Shown here: piece by piece, positions 23,960-58,740 of the stretch
Position numbering within the stretch: position 1 is the stretch's first letter
How the letters are laid out: each line of letters starts with the position of its first letter
NCBI GenBank assembly: GCA_022508245.1
Contig: JAFLVO010000001.1
Span: forward strand, 558,001 to 622,000
From: Clostridiales bacterium
GTDB taxonomy: Bacteria > Bacillota > Clostridia > Christensenellales > Borkfalkiaceae
DNA: 64,000 nt
Direction: 5' to 3'
Notes under the pieces: generated by a model
The model's database searches: none
What the model saw: the letters and a program-made list of their open reading frames with translations, nothing else
What the model was told of the DNA's origin: nothing
Translations under genes and position numbers: made by a program

Positions 23960-25783
23960 ATGAAAAAAGAAGGTAATATTAAGATTTCAAGCGAAAATAT
24001 GATGCCCATAATCAAAAAATGGCTCTATTCGGATAAGGACATTTTTTTAAGAGAGATTGTTGCAAACGGCATCGACGCTATTACAAAATATCAAAAGCTC
24101 GTTACAATGGGCGAGGCTGCGGAGAGTACAGAGGAGTACTGCGTTAAAATTTCCGTTGATAAAAAAGCAAAGACCTTGACTGTCGAGGACAACGGCCTGG
24201 GTATGACGCAGGACGAAGTTGAAAATTATATTACCCAAATTGCCTTTTCGGGCGCATCCGATTTCCTTGAAAAATATGAAAAAGCGGGCGGCGACGGAAT
24301 AATAGGGCATTTTGGACTCGGTTTCTATTCTGCCTATATGGTTTCCGAAAACGTTGAAATCTTTACAAAGTCATACAAGGACGAGCCCGCCGTTCATTGG
24401 GAGTCTGACGGCAATTCGACTTACTCTATCGAGGACTGCGACAAGCAAGAGCGCGGCACGAAGATAGTTATGCACATTGCGGCGGAAGAAAAAGAATTTT
24501 TGGACGAGAATACTATTAAAAATCTCGTTAAAAAATATTGCTCGTTTATGCCGTACAACGTCTACGTTTCGTATAAAGGCGACGGCAAGGACGAGCCTTT
24601 GAACACGACGTTGCCACTCTATGCAAAAGCCCCCAAAGATTGCAGCGACGAAGACTACAAAAAATTCTATACCGATACGTTTTTGGACTTTAACGAGCCC
24701 ATTTTTTGGGTTCATCTGAATATGGACTATCCGTTCAGACTAAAGGGAATACTCTATTTCCCCAAAGTTAAAAATAAGTTGGAGCTGGAACGGGGCAAGG
24801 TAAAGCTTTATTGTAATCAAGTTTTCATTGCCGACAATATTAAGGAAGTTATACCAGAATTTTTAATGCTTTTGAACGGTGTTATTGACTGCCCCGATAT
24901 ACCTTTAAACGTCTCGCGCAGCTTTTTGCAAAATGACAGACAAGTTCAGAAGATAAGCAAGCATATTACCAAGAAAGTTGCGGATAAGCTCATTTCTCTT
25001 TTCAAAAATGACCGAACCAAGTTTGAAGAGTGCTGGGGCGACGTAGCAAATTTCGTTAAATTTGGCTGCATTAAGGACGAGGATTTCTACGATAAAGTCA
25101 AAGATATAATTATATATAAAGACCTTGACGGCAAGTTCTTAAATTTTAAAGAGCTATTAAAAGATGATGATTCTCAACCCGAAAAAGAAGAAAAGACGGA
25201 GGAGAATAAAAAGCCGACCACCGTATACTACGTATCAGATGAACAACAGCAAGCCCAGTATATAAAGCTGTTCAAGGGTGAGGGACTCAACGCCATTTTG
25301 TGCGATAACTTTATTGACCCGCATTTTTTAAGCTTTCTCGAATACAAAATGCCGTCAAAGCTCAACTTCAAACGCATAGATGCAGACGTAGACGGGGCAC
25401 TCAAAAAAGAAGATTCTGCCGAGGACAGCGTCATCTGCGACATTTTTAAAAATGCACTTAATAACGATAAATTGACAGTCAAAACCGAAAATCTTAAAGA
25501 TACAGCAACTCCCGCGATTATAGTAGTGGACGAGTATATGCGCCGTTACAGTGAAATGGGTCAATATTACGGTATGAGCGAGGGAGAACCCAGCAAAACA
25601 GTTATTGTCAACCTTTCATGCCCCGTAATTGCGGGGATTAAAGAGCTTGACGAGGAAAAGCAGAAATTCGTTGCCAATTACGTTTATCTATTGGCACTTT
25701 CCTCATTTAAAAAACTTTCTAGCGAAGAACTTGAAAAATTCCTTGCGGCAAATATTCAGCTTCTTGAAAGTTATACAAAATAA
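23960..25783 (+). CDS. htpG: Molecular chaperone HtpG (Hsp90 family)
   Basis: HtpG is the bacterial Hsp90, an ATP-dependent homodimeric chaperone. The N-terminal GHKL domain has LREIVANGIDAITKYQKL (residues 32-49), DNGLGM and GHFGLGFYSAYMV; the middle domain has PLNVSRSFLQND. The first motif is altered from the usual LRELISNASDALDKIR, but the catalytic Glu and the Asn and Asp are kept. At 607 residues it is a little shorter than E. coli HtpG. AAGGAGG precedes the ATG, and a strong hairpin terminator follows. The 100 bases before the gene hold no clear consensus promoter. Confidence 0.96.
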   Translation: MKKEGNIKISSENMMPIIKKWLYSDKDIFLREIVANGIDAITKYQKLVTMGEAAESTEEYCVKISVDKKAKTLTVEDNGLGMTQDEVENYITQIAFSGASDFLEKYEKAGGDGIIGHFGLGFYSAYMVSENVEIFTKSYKDEPAVHWESDGNSTYSIEDCDKQERGTKIVMHIAAEEKEFLDENTIKNLVKKYCSFMPYNVYVSYKGDGKDEPLNTTLPLYAKAPKDCSDEDYKKFYTDTFLDFNEPIFWVHLNMDYPFRLKGILYFPKVKNKLELERGKVKLYCNQVFIADNIKEVIPEFLMLLNGVIDCPDIPLNVSRSFLQNDRQVQKISKHITKKVADKLISLFKNDRTKFEECWGDVANFVKFGCIKDEDFYDKVKDIIIYKDLDGKFLNFKELLKDDDSQPEKEEKTEENKKPTTVYYVSDEQQQAQYIKLFKGEGLNAILCDNFIDPHFLSFLEYKMPSKLNFKRIDADVDGALKKEDSAEDSVICDIFKNALNNDKLTVKTENLKDTATPAIIVVDEYMRRYSEMGQYYGMSEGEPSKTVIVNLSCPVIAGIKELDEEKQKFVANYVYLLALSSFKKLSSEELEKFLAANIQLLESYTK

Positions 25784-25797
25784 AACCAAATAATTAT

Positions 25798-25838
25798 AAA
25801 AAAGAGCAAATATCGGAAAAATATTTGCTCTTTTTTAT
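25798..25838. terminator. Intrinsic terminator after htpG
   Basis: A 13-bp AT-rich stem, AAAGAGCAAATAT / ATATTTGCTCTTT, is flanked by A and T runs. It can work in both directions but follows htpG. Confidence 0.9.
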
Positions 25839-25847
25839 ATTACAGTC

Positions 25848-31675: not shown

Positions 31676-34111
31676 ATGAGCACAAACATTACCGAAAAGG
31701 AAGTCAAAGAGCTGATAAAGGGCAAGCTTTCTAGATATTTCGGCGTTGCCCCGGCGGAAGCTTCCAAAGAACAGGTATATAAAGCCGTCGTAATGGTAGT
31801 AAGAGACATCTTACTTCAAAAAAGACAGCAATTTCAAAAGAAAGTAAAGGCAAAGCGTGCAAAGAGAGTTTATTATCTTTGTATGGAATTCCTTATGGGG
31901 CGCTCGCTTAAAAACAGCTTGTATAATTTAAGCGCGACTTCTATTTTTGAAAAGGTAGTCAATTCATACGGAATTACCCTTGATGAGCTGTACGATGCGG
32001 AACCCGACGCAGGTTTAGGCAACGGCGGACTCGGAAGACTTGCAGCTTGCTTTTTAGATGCACTTGCAACTGGCGATTACCCCGCAATGGGATATTCACT
32101 CCGTTACGAATACGGACTTTTCAAGCAGAAAATTGTTGACGGCTGGCAGATAGAGTTGCCTGACGCTTGGCTTCCCGGTGGAGAAGTTTGGCTCACTCAA
32201 AGAACGGATAAATCTTTTACCGTAAGATTCAACGGCCAAATTGAAGAAAAGTGGACGGAGAACGGGTTAGAAACTAATTACGTTAACTGCAAAGAGGTTC
32301 AGGCTGTTGCCTACGATATGATGGTTTCGGGCAAGAATAGCGACGCTGTTTCCGTTTTAAGACTTTGGAAGGCAAAGCCCGTGCAGGATTTCAATATGAA
32401 GCTATTCACACAGGGCAATTATTATCAGGCGATGACTGAAGACAACGACGCCGATTTGCTTACAAAGGTCCTTTATCCTGCAGATAACCACAGCGCGGGC
32501 AAATCATTGCGTTTGAAACAGCAGTATTTCCTTTGCTCGGCATCTATACAAAATATAGTTGAAGATCACAGGCACAGATACGGCGATTTAAGAGACTTAC
32601 CTAAGCTTGCTGCGATTCATCTCAACGATACGCATCCCGCAATGGCAATACCCGAGCTCATGAGAGTGCTCATTGACGAATATTTTTATGATTGGGATAC
32701 TGCGTGGGCAATTACAACGGCAACTTGCGCATATACTAACCATACTGTGCTTGCCGAGGCGCTTGAAACTTGGGCAGAGGACCTCATCGAGCGCACTATT
32801 CCCAGAATTCATGTGATAATAAAAGAGATAAACAGAAGATTATGCGAGCAGCTTTGGAACAGCTTCCCCGGCGAGTGGGCAAAGATTTCTCGCATGTCTA
32901 TCATCGAACACGGCAGAATTAAGATGGCAAATCTATCCGTCTTCGGCGGGTACAGCGTTAACGGCGTTTCGGCGCTTCATAGCGAAATAATAAAGACGTC
33001 GATATTCAAAGATTTTTATGATTTTTCGCCCGAAAAGTTCACAAACGTCACTAACGGTATTGCGCACAGACGCTGGCTCAATCAGTCAAACCCAGAGCTT
33101 GCGGCGCTACTTGACGAGTGCATTGGTACGGGCTATGAGCTTGACAGCAGTGCTTTTTTGGAATTTAAAAAGTTTGAAGATGACGAGAGCGTCTTAAAAC
33201 GTCTTGAAGAGATAAAACTCATTAAAAAGCAGCAATTCGCCGATTACGCAAAGAAAAAGCAGGGCCTCATTTTGGACCCCAATACGCTGTTCGATGTGCA
33301 GGCAAAACGGCTCCATGAGTATAAACGCCAGCTTTTAAACGTTTTAAACATAATCGACACTTATCTTGATTTGCAGGATAACCCCAACCTTGACGTAGTT
33401 CCCAAAACTTATATTTTCGGAGCTAAAGCGGCACCGGGTTACGACATGGCAAAGAAAACTATTAAGCTTATCAATTACCTTGCCGACGAAATCAGAGCTA
33501 ACCCCAAAATCAAGGAAAAGCTTAACGTTGTGTATATGGAAGACTACAATGTATCGATGTCCGAAAGACTCATGCCCGCGTCGGAAGTTTCTGAACAGAT
33601 TTCTCTTGCTGGCAAAGAGGCGAGCGGTACCGGTAATATGAAGTTTATGATTAACGGCGCCCTGACAATCGGAACATTAGACGGCGCAAATGTTGAAATT
33701 GCGCAGGCTGTAGGTAATAGTAATATATTTATTTTCGGTTATAAAGCCGACGAAGTCGATCAGATTTGGCGCAACGGCTACAGTTCGAGCAAATATTATA
33801 ACGAGTCTGTCAAGCTCCGCAGAATTATAGAGGCACTGATTATCGGATTTAACGGAGAATCTTTTGCAGAGATTGCAAACTATCTATTGACCGATACGCC
33901 TGTTGCCGACCCGTATATGTGCATGGCGGATTTCACAGCATACAGCAGAGCGCAGAAAAAGATTTCCAAATTATATAAAACTGATAAAATAAAGTGGAAT
34001 CAGATGTCGTTAAGAAACATTGCGGCAGCCGGATATTTTGCTGCCGACCGCGCGATTAACGATTATGCAACAAACATTTGGAATCTAAAGCCATTGAAAC
34101 TTGATAAATAA
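31676..34111 (+). CDS. glgP: Glycogen/starch/alpha-glucan phosphorylase
   Basis: GlgP releases glucose-1-phosphate from glycogen by phosphorolysis. The 811-residue GT35 protein shows EPDAGLGNGGLGRLAACF (about residue 100), HLNDTHPAMAIPELMR, VTNGIAHRRWL and the PLP-binding segment EASGTGNMKFMINGALTIGTL. No N-terminal regulatory phosphorylation region of the animal type is present. It closes the glgBCDAP operon, so synthesis and breakdown are co-transcribed. No debranching enzyme (glgX or pulA) is encoded here. A strong terminator follows. Confidence 0.97.
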   Translation: MSTNITEKEVKELIKGKLSRYFGVAPAEASKEQVYKAVVMVVRDILLQKRQQFQKKVKAKRAKRVYYLCMEFLMGRSLKNSLYNLSATSIFEKVVNSYGITLDELYDAEPDAGLGNGGLGRLAACFLDALATGDYPAMGYSLRYEYGLFKQKIVDGWQIELPDAWLPGGEVWLTQRTDKSFTVRFNGQIEEKWTENGLETNYVNCKEVQAVAYDMMVSGKNSDAVSVLRLWKAKPVQDFNMKLFTQGNYYQAMTEDNDADLLTKVLYPADNHSAGKSLRLKQQYFLCSASIQNIVEDHRHRYGDLRDLPKLAAIHLNDTHPAMAIPELMRVLIDEYFYDWDTAWAITTATCAYTNHTVLAEALETWAEDLIERTIPRIHVIIKEINRRLCEQLWNSFPGEWAKISRMSIIEHGRIKMANLSVFGGYSVNGVSALHSEIIKTSIFKDFYDFSPEKFTNVTNGIAHRRWLNQSNPELAALLDECIGTGYELDSSAFLEFKKFEDDESVLKRLEEIKLIKKQQFADYAKKKQGLILDPNTLFDVQAKRLHEYKRQLLNVLNIIDTYLDLQDNPNLDVVPKTYIFGAKAAPGYDMAKKTIKLINYLADEIRANPKIKEKLNVVYMEDYNVSMSERLMPASEVSEQISLAGKEASGTGNMKFMINGALTIGTLDGANVEIAQAVGNSNIFIFGYKADEVDQIWRNGYSSSKYYNESVKLRRIIEALIIGFNGESFAEIANYLLTDTPVADPYMCMADFTAYSRAQKKISKLYKTDKIKWNQMSLRNIAAAGYFAADRAINDYATNIWNLKPLKLDK

Positions 34112-34131
34112 TTATTTACAAAAGTCACTTA

Positions 34132-34160
34132 AAAACGCCGAATTCACTTCGGCGTTTTAA
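34132..34160 (+). terminator. Intrinsic terminator of the glycogen operon
   Basis: AAAACGCCGAA and TTCGGCGTTTT form a perfect 11-bp stem around TTCAC. It ends the glgBCDAP unit. Confidence 0.93.
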
Positions 34161-34293
34161 TCATTTTTGATGTATTATGTCTGACATAATCGGCTTTTAA
34201 TCCTCAATTACAATAGATTTGTTGCGAAATTTGTTAAAAATTAAACACAATTTAAATATAGCTTATTTTTGCAAAAAATTTATTAAAATGTTC

Positions 34294-34323
34294 TTGACAA
34301 CCTGCCTACTCCTATGTTATTAT
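34294..34323 (+). promoter_or_regulatory. Strong promoter of the XerS-like recombinase gene
   Basis: A consensus -35 TTGACA is followed after 18 bases by TATTAT with an extended TG element directly before it. The predicted start near 34330 puts the 18-bp inverted repeat at the very 5' end of the transcript. Confidence 0.8.
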
Positions 34324-34333
34324 GCAAAAAAGC

Positions 34334-34375
34334 CCCAAACACTTCGTAAAAGTTGTGTTTTACGAAGTGTTTGGG
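34334..34375. repeat. Perfect 18-bp inverted repeat, candidate dif-like recombination site
   Basis: The left arm CCCAAACACTTCGTAAAA (34334-34351) and its exact reverse complement (34358-34375) flank a six-base centre GTTGTG. The inner part has the 11-6-11 geometry of dif sites. Its left arm ACTTCGTAAAA matches nine of eleven bases of the Bacillus dif arm as I remember it. No U-tract follows, so it is not a terminator. It lies 63 bases before a single-gene XerS-like recombinase. A 5' mRNA-stabilising hairpin or operator is the alternative. Confidence 0.6.
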
Positions 34376-34438
34376 ATACATAACAATGGGACTAGAAGTA
34401 CCCCCGCTCAAAATAAGTTTAGTTTTTAGGAGCAGAAA

Positions 34439-35500
34439 ATGTCAACCGATTACTACGTACAACGTAACAATAATAATTTAGAGACGATAGATAAGTTACT
34501 CAATGAAGAGCTCCCTTCGTTTTGTTACGACTATTTTCTCGGAATTGACAGTCAGACGTCCACTCTGACAAGACTTAACTATGCTCACGATTTAAAGATA
34601 TTCTTCCACTTCCTTACTACTAAAAGGATTAAAAATAAAGCCGTGCAGGATTTAACACTTGACGACTTGGATAGCGTTACAAGTACGGATATTGAGTATT
34701 TTTTGAGTTACCTATCGCATTACACCTACCGTGGCAAGGAACATAACTGTAACGAGCGTGCAAAGGCACGTAAGCTCTCCTCCGTTCGTGCCATGTTCAA
34801 GTATTTTTTCAATAAGGGATTTATTAGCGTTGACAACGCCTCAAAGGTTGCAACTCCGAAATTGCATGACAAACCTATCATCCGCTTGGAAACTGATGAA
34901 GTTTTCAATATCTTGGACGTTGCCGAGACGGGTGACGGGCTTACAAACCATCAGCGGCACTACCACGAGCAGAATAAAGTGCGTGACGGTGCAATTTTGA
35001 TGTTGTTTCTCGGTACGGGAATACGTATAAGTGAGCTTGTGGGCTTAAATAATCAAGATATCAATTTCAAAGACAATTCCTTTATAGTAACTCGAAAAGG
35101 CGGCAGTAAATCAATTTTATACTTCGACGATGACGTGGCTGCCGCTCTTCAGCGCTATTTGGATTATAAAGAAGAAAAAAAACAGCTTGACAAATCGTTA
35201 GTTCAGGAGCCCGACGCCCTCTTCCTCACTAATAACACGCGCAGAATTACCGTTCGCGCCGTCGAAAATCTCGTTCAGAAGTATGCAAAGATTGTCTCAC
35301 CCCTCAAAAAAATTTCGCCTCATAAGCTGCGCTCTACCTACGGCACACAGCTTTATAAGGCTACGGGAGATATTTATATAGTTGCTGACGTTTTGGGGCA
35401 TCGCGACGTCAACACTACGCGAAAACACTACGCCGCTATAAGCGATGACAATCGTCGAGGTGTCGTCGGCAAAGTAAAGTTAAAGCGTGACGACGATTAA
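34439..35500 (+). CDS. XerS-like tyrosine recombinase
   Basis: A 353-residue tyrosine recombinase with every catalytic residue: Arg in GTGIRISELVGL, Lys in TRKGGSK, HKLR in SPHKLRSTYGT, His in LGHRDVNTT and the nucleophile Tyr in TRKHYAA. The N-terminal SAM-like domain spans about residues 20-140. Length, a spacer of about 20 residues before VRDGAILMLFLGTGIR, and overall layout resemble streptococcal XerS, not XerC/XerD of about 300 residues. A perfect inverted repeat lies upstream, and GGAG precedes the ATG. No excisionase, relaxase or phage gene is nearby, so a chromosome-resolution role is favoured over an integrative element. Its stop overlaps the convergent Cys-rich gene. Confidence 0.85.
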   Translation: MSTDYYVQRNNNNLETIDKLLNEELPSFCYDYFLGIDSQTSTLTRLNYAHDLKIFFHFLTTKRIKNKAVQDLTLDDLDSVTSTDIEYFLSYLSHYTYRGKEHNCNERAKARKLSSVRAMFKYFFNKGFISVDNASKVATPKLHDKPIIRLETDEVFNILDVAETGDGLTNHQRHYHEQNKVRDGAILMLFLGTGIRISELVGLNNQDINFKDNSFIVTRKGGSKSILYFDDDVAAALQRYLDYKEEKKQLDKSLVQEPDALFLTNNTRRITVRAVENLVQKYAKIVSPLKKISPHKLRSTYGTQLYKATGDIYIVADVLGHRDVNTTRKHYAAISDDNRRGVVGKVKLKRDDD

Positions 35501-35785: not shown

Positions 35786-36385
35786 ATGGAAAGAAAAACC
35801 GAAATAAAAAAGCTTAAATCAGAGGATGCCGTTTTTAAATTTATTCAGGAATTTATTTCCGAAAACGGCTACGCCCCTTGCGTGCGTGAGGTTTGCAAGG
35901 CATGCAACATAAAATCCACGGCAACTGCTTTTAGCGTTATAAACAGGCTTAAAGAACGTGGGCTGTTAGAAAAGTCAGACGTAAAGCGCCGCGCAATTTC
36001 ATTAAAAAGTAAAACTGTTTCCGTACCCATTGTCGGCACCGTTGCCGCAGGTCAGCCCATATTTGCAAATGAAAGCTATGACGGCTACGTCTCCCTTCCG
36101 GATAATTTTTTTTCCGGCGAAGATCTGTTTATACTCAACGTGAAAGGCACTTCAATGATTAAAATCGGAATCTTCGACGGCGATAAAGTTGTTGTTCGTA
36201 AGCAAGACACTGCCGATAACGGAGATATCGTTGTTGCCTTGGTAGACGACAGCGCCACGGTAAAAAGGTTTTTCAAGCGTGACGGAAGGTTTATTCTCCA
36301 CCCCGAAAACGACGACATGGACGACTTAATATATGACGAGGTTTCCATTCTCGGTAAAGTCGTAGGACTAATGAGAACAATGTAA
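35786..36385 (+). CDS. lexA: LexA repressor
   Basis: LexA represses DNA-damage genes and self-cleaves with RecA filaments. The 199-residue protein has an N-terminal winged HTH (AFSVINRLKERGLLEK, about residues 49-64), the Ala-Gly cleavage site in VAAGQPIF (about residues 92-99), the catalytic Ser in GTSMIKIG (about residue 129) and the Lys in DSATVKRF (about residue 166). The ribosome-binding site (TAGG) is weak. A palindrome overlapping its promoter suggests autoregulation. A hairpin terminator follows three bases after the stop. Confidence 0.96.
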   Translation: MERKTEIKKLKSEDAVFKFIQEFISENGYAPCVREVCKACNIKSTATAFSVINRLKERGLLEKSDVKRRAISLKSKTVSVPIVGTVAAGQPIFANESYDGYVSLPDNFFSGEDLFILNVKGTSMIKIGIFDGDKVVVRKQDTADNGDIVVALVDDSATVKRFFKRDGRFILHPENDDMDDLIYDEVSILGKVVGLMRTM

Positions 36386-58569: not shown

Positions 58570-58706
58570 CTTGTCGTATATACCTCTTTAAAATTTATAC
58601 TTCAATTTTACCCAAATTTTGCTAAAACTTCAATATTTTCTTCTCAACTGTTAGTAGAATTTCTGTATTTATTATTGAATTTAAGGTATTTTATATAAAT
58701 TTAAAA

Positions 58707-58740
58707 AAATCAGCCGAGCAAAAATTGCTCGGCTGATTTT
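58707..58740 (-). terminator. Intrinsic terminator of acpP
   Basis: AAATCAGCCGAGCAA and TTGCTCGGCTGATTT form a perfect 15-bp stem with a three-base loop, followed on the minus strand by T's, just after the acpP stop. Confidence 0.95.

Follow-up and report, generated by a model that had tools for sequence, protein, structure and literature searches.

XerS recombinases have about 356 amino acids (aa) and a site directly beside their gene (PMC5357621, excerpted text); this site, difSL, lies at the terminus (PMC2731167, in excerpt), spans 31 bp, and has an 11-bp centre between unequal arms (PMC5357621, same excerpts). XerH/difH of the epsilon-proteobacteria is a single-recombinase system with a 6-bp centre, in which gene and site are often linked (accessible portions of PMC5241119 and PMC2731167), and at both XerS and XerH sites the unequal arms are described, in the available parts of PMC5357621 and PMC5241119, as guiding the order of events. 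The single-recombinase XerL/dif system of the Legionellales was missed by homology searches and came to light through an element that had integrated at dif (PMC9765430, in excerpt). Here, we analysed a 64,000-nucleotide stretch of a Clostridiales bacterium genome (GCA_022508245.1, contig JAFLVO010000001.1, positions 558,001 to 622,000; hereafter the window), in which a single Xer-type tyrosine recombinase gene is preceded by a dif-like inverted repeat (Table 1). With a probability of roughly 90%, the gene and its conserved site at a turn of the GC skew form a single-recombinase dif/Xer module of Clostridia, which would likely resolve chromosome dimers. The case for this module rests on the site, on its position at the terminus, and on elements inserted into it, the inserted elements being the most telling evidence.

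The first-pass annotation of this DNA had read the locus as a chromosome-resolution module, and this reading was supported and proved largely right. Its coordinates for gene and repeat were exact, and comparison of the coordinates confirmed a perfect 18-bp inverted repeat with a six-base centre, separated from the recombinase start codon by 63 bases. The 18-nt arm exceeds chance: mononucleotide shuffling of the window, done 50 times, gave arms of at most 12 nt. Other perfect inverted repeats occur in the window (19-nt arms at 25795–25839, 16-nt arms at 58706–58740), and the repeat before the recombinase is set apart by its conservation and location, not by being an inverted repeat as such. The rest of the genome was searched for a second copy using the 12-6-12 core of the repeat, and the core was found to be single (1 occurrence in the 1.66-Mb genome, up to 3 mismatches). 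A terminator or RNA hairpin was considered for the repeat and rejected: a T-run follows the stem on the minus strand only, no gene end was recognised there, and core and centre are retained in relatives.

Conservation was assessed in a main sample of 101 genomes, comprising the window's own, 60 of its genus, and 40 others of the order holding Christensenella. The pattern TTCGTAAAA-N6-TTTTACGAA, allowing at most 1 mismatch, was found in 57 of the 101 genomes with one copy each, versus 5 of 101 for the reversed control pattern. Two of these 57 matches are probably not dif, one being of low complexity (G003) and the other lying on a mobile-element-like contig (G096); a better site candidate is present in G096, 832 bp before the recombinase. 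The G096 contig with the dif-like match (L202 10045, G096:C3) carries genes that look ParA-like and conjugation-like (ORFs, i.e., open reading frames, read by eye). Among 91 distinct close loci, defined by at least 60% protein identity and at least 200 bp of upstream DNA, a site (at most 2 mismatches) was present in 86, at a distance from the gene of 56–8052 bp (median 227 bp), and the concern that orthologues might lack the palindrome was not borne out. Outside the genus, the comparison covered 36 of the order's 40 other genomes (3 had no gene match, and G089 was fragmented), and the site lay within 2.5 kb of the gene in 27, 25 by pattern (at most 3 mismatches) and 2 by palindrome scan, one of them imperfect; it lay farther away on the gene's contig in two (G087 at 2.5 kb, G099 at 5.4 kb), and on a different contig in two more (G077, G093). 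Among the order's other families covered here, most have the site. In other orders, a looser pattern was matched no farther than 1 kb from the gene in at least 12 of 30 homologue-bearing genomes, and in G103, G221, and G331 such a site lay about 60 bp from the matched gene start. Class-wide, the looser pattern was found in 82 of 245 genomes, versus about 67 of 245 for the reversed control; since this barely exceeds the control, genome counts carry no weight at that level, and only proximity to the gene counts.

For analysis of symmetry, 119 sites were used out of 162 distinct loci, the others having no pattern-matched site or no upstream DNA. Arm positions 4, 5, 8, 10–13, and 15 paired above all 500 shuffles, and positions 14 and 16 onward did not. 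Since pairing across relatives ends at position 15, the 18-bp symmetry of the window copy is partly individual. One arm presumably matches the Bacillus dif arm at 9 of 11 bases, a likeness that was given little weight because the outer arm bases ACTTCG are just one of several forms among relatives (first variable position A in 69 and C in 39 of 119 sites). Exactly equal 9-bp arms were present in 87 of the 119 sites, so that at those sites only the centre remains to set strand order; the centre is asymmetric, and its commonest form is GCTGTG (50 of 119). A different palindrome, perfect TTCGCTAAA-N6-TTTAGCGAA, was observed in another Clostridia family (f72), in four genomes without a window-type recombinase at E ≤ 1e-50 (G219, G308, G139, G243), and is perhaps the dif of another recombinase.

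Table 1. Features at the recombinase locus (positions in the window)
Feature	Coordinates	Strand	Remarks
Promoter-like TTGACA-18-TATTAT of recombinase gene	34294..34323	+	11/12 matches; dif-like site covers expected transcript start
Dif-like site, perfect 18-6-18 inverted repeat	34334..34375 (arms 34334-34351 / 34358-34375)	.	Symmetry common to relatives extends to 15-bp arms, 34337-34372
Left core arm TTCGTAAAA	34343..34351	.	Pattern searches and site alignment
Asymmetric 6-bp centre GTTGTG	34352..34357	.	Predicted overlap region of strand exchange
Right core arm TTTTACGAA	34358..34366	.	Pattern searches and site alignment
Single Xer-type tyrosine recombinase	34439..35500	+	353 aa ORF; R196, K220, H295, R298, H321, Y331
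GC-skew turning point, predicted replication terminus	34040..34375	.	Cumulative maximum 34040
Upstream neighbour, glycogen-phosphorylase-like	31676..34111	+	Read from ORF by eye, no family search
Downstream neighbour, LexA-like	35786..36385	+	Read from ORF by eye, no family search

The cumulative GC skew of the window turns from plus to minus at a peak 294 bases before the repeat. In two other genomes, the cumulative skew maximum was at 2269332 with the gene at 2269467–2270501 (G090), and at 25634 with the gene at 24210–25190 (G092). Skew on the two sides of the site was compared in 46 loci flanked on either side by 6 kb or more (5 long loci were excluded, 3 without a site by that rule and 2 short on one side), and was higher on the left in 45, with a true plus-to-minus switch in 33; among control stretches, one of 20 with 5-kb halves and none of 17 with 10-kb halves showed such a switch. 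With five single-contig genomes treated as circles, and dnaA taken as a stand-in for oriC, the dnaA-to-gene distance was 50.8% (G092), 53.0% (G090), 53.0% (G246), 48.3% (G141), and 52.1% (G162) of the contig, and was 46.3% in an XerS control genome (G626). The arrangement found, one site per chromosome at the terminus and opposite dnaA, is that expected of dif/Xer.

In three loci (L135, L200 of G058, and L331 of G099), a stretch of 5.4–7.7 kb lies between site and gene. The far end of each of these elements is a complete site, and the near end is a second copy of the centre, the right arm, and a few flanking bases, without the left arm, giving exact direct repeats in the same orientation of 24 bp (L135), 23 bp (L200), and 25 bp (L331). 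A second centre-plus-arm copy was found in 3 of 129 distinct non-viral sites, and reversed motifs in 0. The L135 element encodes Rep_OBD and Zot (both over cut-off), the L200 element Rep_1 and PAPS reductase, and the L331 element Rep_trans together with a Zot match slightly under cut-off. The picture in G008 is similar: it encodes Rep_OBD and an ATPase-like protein that matched no family above its cut-off, the site at its recombinase gene has a 9-nt centre, and the 6-nt-centre site lies close to where a different contig ends. A possible fifth insertion case, G042, is less clear. Since a gene like glgP precedes the site in G008 and G058 as it does in the window, and the LexA-like gene follows the recombinase also in G008 and L135, the window represents the empty arrangement. 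No recombinase family was found among the 32 element proteins scanned (10 from L135, 10 from L200, 5 from L331, 7 from L203), smaller ORFs lying outside the scan, and in G008, G058, and G099 the window-type gene is the sole XerD-model match at E ≤ 1e-30. As judged from their sequences, the inserted elements bear the signature of integrative mobile elements exploiting Xer (IMEX), namely location at dif, repeats resembling att sites, and no recombinase family among the proteins scanned, and the window-type enzyme would be the one that inserted them. Their junctions parallel those of CTX phages. One passage in the excerpted text of PMC5357621 supports this parallel.

A small protein of unknown family was also observed close to the site in three elements (L135 2521–2853, L199 10015–10362, L200 8960–9274), with 44–51% identity to the L135 copy. 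On viral contigs (L208, L210, L216–L220, L322–L330), an extended dif-like palindrome was seen, in several cases near a terminase-like gene (read by eye). The bare 18-base pattern occurred on 22 viral contigs, many possibly by chance, with 7 sharing the extended arm, and a stricter pattern occurred on 14, 5 of which overlap the 22. Since the viral centres (e.g., GGATAG, CTATTG) mostly differ from those of the hosts, insertion of these phages into host dif is doubtful; the palindromes perhaps serve to resolve phage multimers.

An orthologue of the recombinase (E ≤ 1e-20) was found in 87 of the 101 genomes, with a single match in 85 of those 87, and in 66 of 73 good-quality genomes; at class level, a homologue at E ≤ 1e-50 was present in 40 of 245 genomes. 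Relatives with the locus (80 loci) include metagenome-assembled genomes named Candidatus Coproplasma, Gallimonas, and Scatosoma, and the G090 recombinase is 100% identical to a protein named C. massiliensis. The module, initially taken for an isolated new case in one Clostridia-like organism, instead spans the order and other Clostridia. Tyrosine integrases often adjoin their att site, and the database names among the homologues listed included 'tyrosine-type recombinase/integrase', 'integrase', 'XerD', and 'XerC', with no XerS noticed; both points would suit a resident mobile element whose integrase is encoded by the gene and whose attachment site is the repeat. Such an origin is extremely improbable in view of the single orthologue carried by most of the sample, the absence of recognisable element-like genes around the gene in the window ORFs (read by eye, no family search), the location of the gene opposite dnaA, and the lack of any recombinase family among the element proteins scanned at the site.

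The −10 box of the predicted promoter is spaced 10 bases from the repeat, and the overlap of the site with the transcript start, proposed at the outset, is consistent with this promoter. In 53 loci, the full site is either missing or no closer to the gene than 190 bp. The final 150 bp before the gene contain a half-site (at most 1 mismatch) in 38 of these loci, versus 8% in shuffles; at 35–80 bp before the gene, a left arm occurs in 36 of the 53 and a right arm in just one, and TTGAC directly follows the left arm in 27. In 38 loci with a near full site, an extra left-arm half-site was found in 15 and an extra right-arm half-site in 3. Half-sites as scars of lost elements were considered and rejected, since a gene-side scar should retain the right arm, yet the left arm predominates (36 versus 1). 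The solitary half-site suggests a putative operator at the −35 box, and the layout of the promoter suggests autoregulation of the recombinase gene, with repression as the likelier sign. The covered transcript start and the left-arm half-sites with TTGAC behind them would equally suit a repeat that is a mere operator, or a hairpin in the 5′ untranslated region of the recombinase gene, and no recombination site. This is very unlikely, since the full site is intact and single even at 0.5–8 kb from the gene or on another contig, marks the turning point of the skew, and holds inserted elements with centre-plus-arm repeats.

The 353-residue length of the recombinase and its six catalytic residues, as first described, were upheld by agreement of ORF and residue alignment; the complete R-K-H-R-H-Y set is retained in 156–159 of 159 aligned homologues, and the Pfam domains are PF00589 and PF02899. 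The host genome has 2 PF00589 genes, namely that of the window and L001 (G000:C13:88417-90608), which encodes a second, XerC/D-like recombinase of 303 aa and lies on the dnaA contig about 55 kb from dnaA. A search of the 101 genomes for canonical XerC and XerD, as a check on the single-recombinase reading, gave 0 over cut-off with the XerD and XerC models (TIGR02225 and TIGR02224), and an XerC/D-type gene at E ≤ 1e-55 in 16 (17 matches, below both cut-offs). Four of these 17 matches start no more than 160 bp into their contig, a hint of repeated DNA just upstream. An XerD-model match at E ≤ 1e-30 was obtained in 90 genomes, 66 of which list only one. L001 scores 227.7 and 232.6 bits with the XerD and XerC models, versus 147.6 and 161.2 bits for the window protein, as would be expected if L001 resolved dimers and the window module had another task; this division of labour is highly improbable, the L001 kind being confined to the 16 relatives with subthreshold matches, its gene lying near dnaA, and most of the 90 genomes having one XerD-model match only.

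The best NCBIfam model for the window protein was XerS (NF003462), at 189.2 bits versus a cut-off of 267; XerC, XerA, and XerD came next, each likewise under its cut-off (archaeal XerA NF040815, 148.9 bits versus 220); the match to XerH was weak (one PDB match, 23.8 bits). In a 69-row tree with a midpoint root and long branches (L001 above all), from which one of six XerS rows was omitted and which held no XerH row, the Clostridia clade was supported at 97/92, the five XerS rows at 99/97, and eight XerC/D-type rows fell on one side of a branch at 97/83; the sister status of the Clostridia clade to XerS is not firm. Membership in XerS, XerA, or XerC/D was thus not indicated by the models, the window protein being over none of the cut-offs. 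When the palindrome finder was applied to the DNA preceding the gene in six XerS control loci, no clear common site emerged, which leaves it without a positive control on difSL. The early description of the enzyme as XerS-like holds for its size, the site beside its gene, and its best model, and fails on the score below cut-off, the separate clade, the equal arms, and the 6-bp centre. On these comparisons, the window enzyme is placed not in XerS but in a new clade of single recombinases within the general dif/Xer kind.

Several points weigh against a dif/Xer module. The gene was without a match in 7 of the 73 good-quality relatives, perhaps owing to contig breaks, 5 of the 36 order genomes (G062, G073, G081, G088, G100) yielded no site, and no sign change of the skew occurred at the site in 13 of the 46 loci, 8 of them in the 63–66% identity group. 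The pairing shuffles ignore relatedness, and the selection pattern is itself nearly palindromic in the inner 9 bp, though not outside. Known FtsK-guiding motifs are few, and skewed words are inseparable from coding bias. The XerD and XerC cut-offs are strict: the XerD model matched 12 of the 14 control genomes and the XerC model 5, with scores over cut-off in only 4 and 2, respectively; the count of 0 of 101 therefore says less than is apparent, and the patchiness of the XerC/D-type gene is the firmer evidence.

In the mechanism proposed for the dif/Xer module, two monomers of the window-type enzyme would occupy the equal arms, one at the core TTCGTAAAA and one at its complement (symmetry to 15 bp), and cut the site. 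As replication and division draw to a close, two sites would pair, and strands would be exchanged across the asymmetric 6-bp centre. The direction would be set by this centre alone, as it is in Cre/loxP. FtsK/SpoIIIE would control the recombinase, and the enzyme may regulate its own promoter via the site or, in many relatives, via the lone half-site at the −35 box. With less assurance, we lean towards a distinct dimer-resolution class across Clostridia, in which one recombinase acts on a mirror-symmetric 36-bp dif where only the 6-bp centre sets strand order. In such a class, the recombinase would also tune its own promoter via dif or a solitary −35-box half-site, and several lineages of filamentous-phage-like elements would live by insertion into dif via one arm plus the centre.

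A literature search found no dif/Xer system for Christensenella or its order, subscription papers being mostly outside the search. The module provides a candidate dimer-resolution site for the cultured C. minuta and C. massiliensis and for uncultured Christensenella relatives, its bearers including gut bacteria among Clostridia. Its equal arms offer a direct test of strand order without two proteins or unequal arms, and, as a landing site of phage- or plasmid-like elements, it is a possible DNA-integration tool in hard-to-engineer Clostridia.

Among known systems, XerS/difSL of streptococci and lactococci likewise has a single recombinase with its site adjoining the gene at the terminus; unlike difSL, the window site has a 6-bp centre and equal arms, and the window protein is one residue longer than three XerS rows between the LGH histidine and the catalytic tyrosine. 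XerH/difH shares the single recombinase, the 6-bp centre, and the linkage of gene and site, and XerL/dif shares the single recombinase and an element at dif, a likeness drawn by description, XerL being a Legionellales recombinase. The elements resemble CTX-type filamentous phages, which are IMEX, in having a Rep gene, Zot or a Zot-like ATPase (in 2 of 3), a location at dif, and a full site on one flank with a centre-plus-arm copy on the other; unlike in the CTX-type case, the host system here is a single recombinase. XerC/XerD-dif of E. coli and B. subtilis also joins tyrosine recombinase action to a palindrome-like terminus site, but with two recombinases, and the dif sites of both species have unequal arms. 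Cre/loxP has equal arms around an asymmetric centre and one enzyme, as does the window module, which differs in having a chromosomal terminus site, a 6-bp centre, and a core gene.
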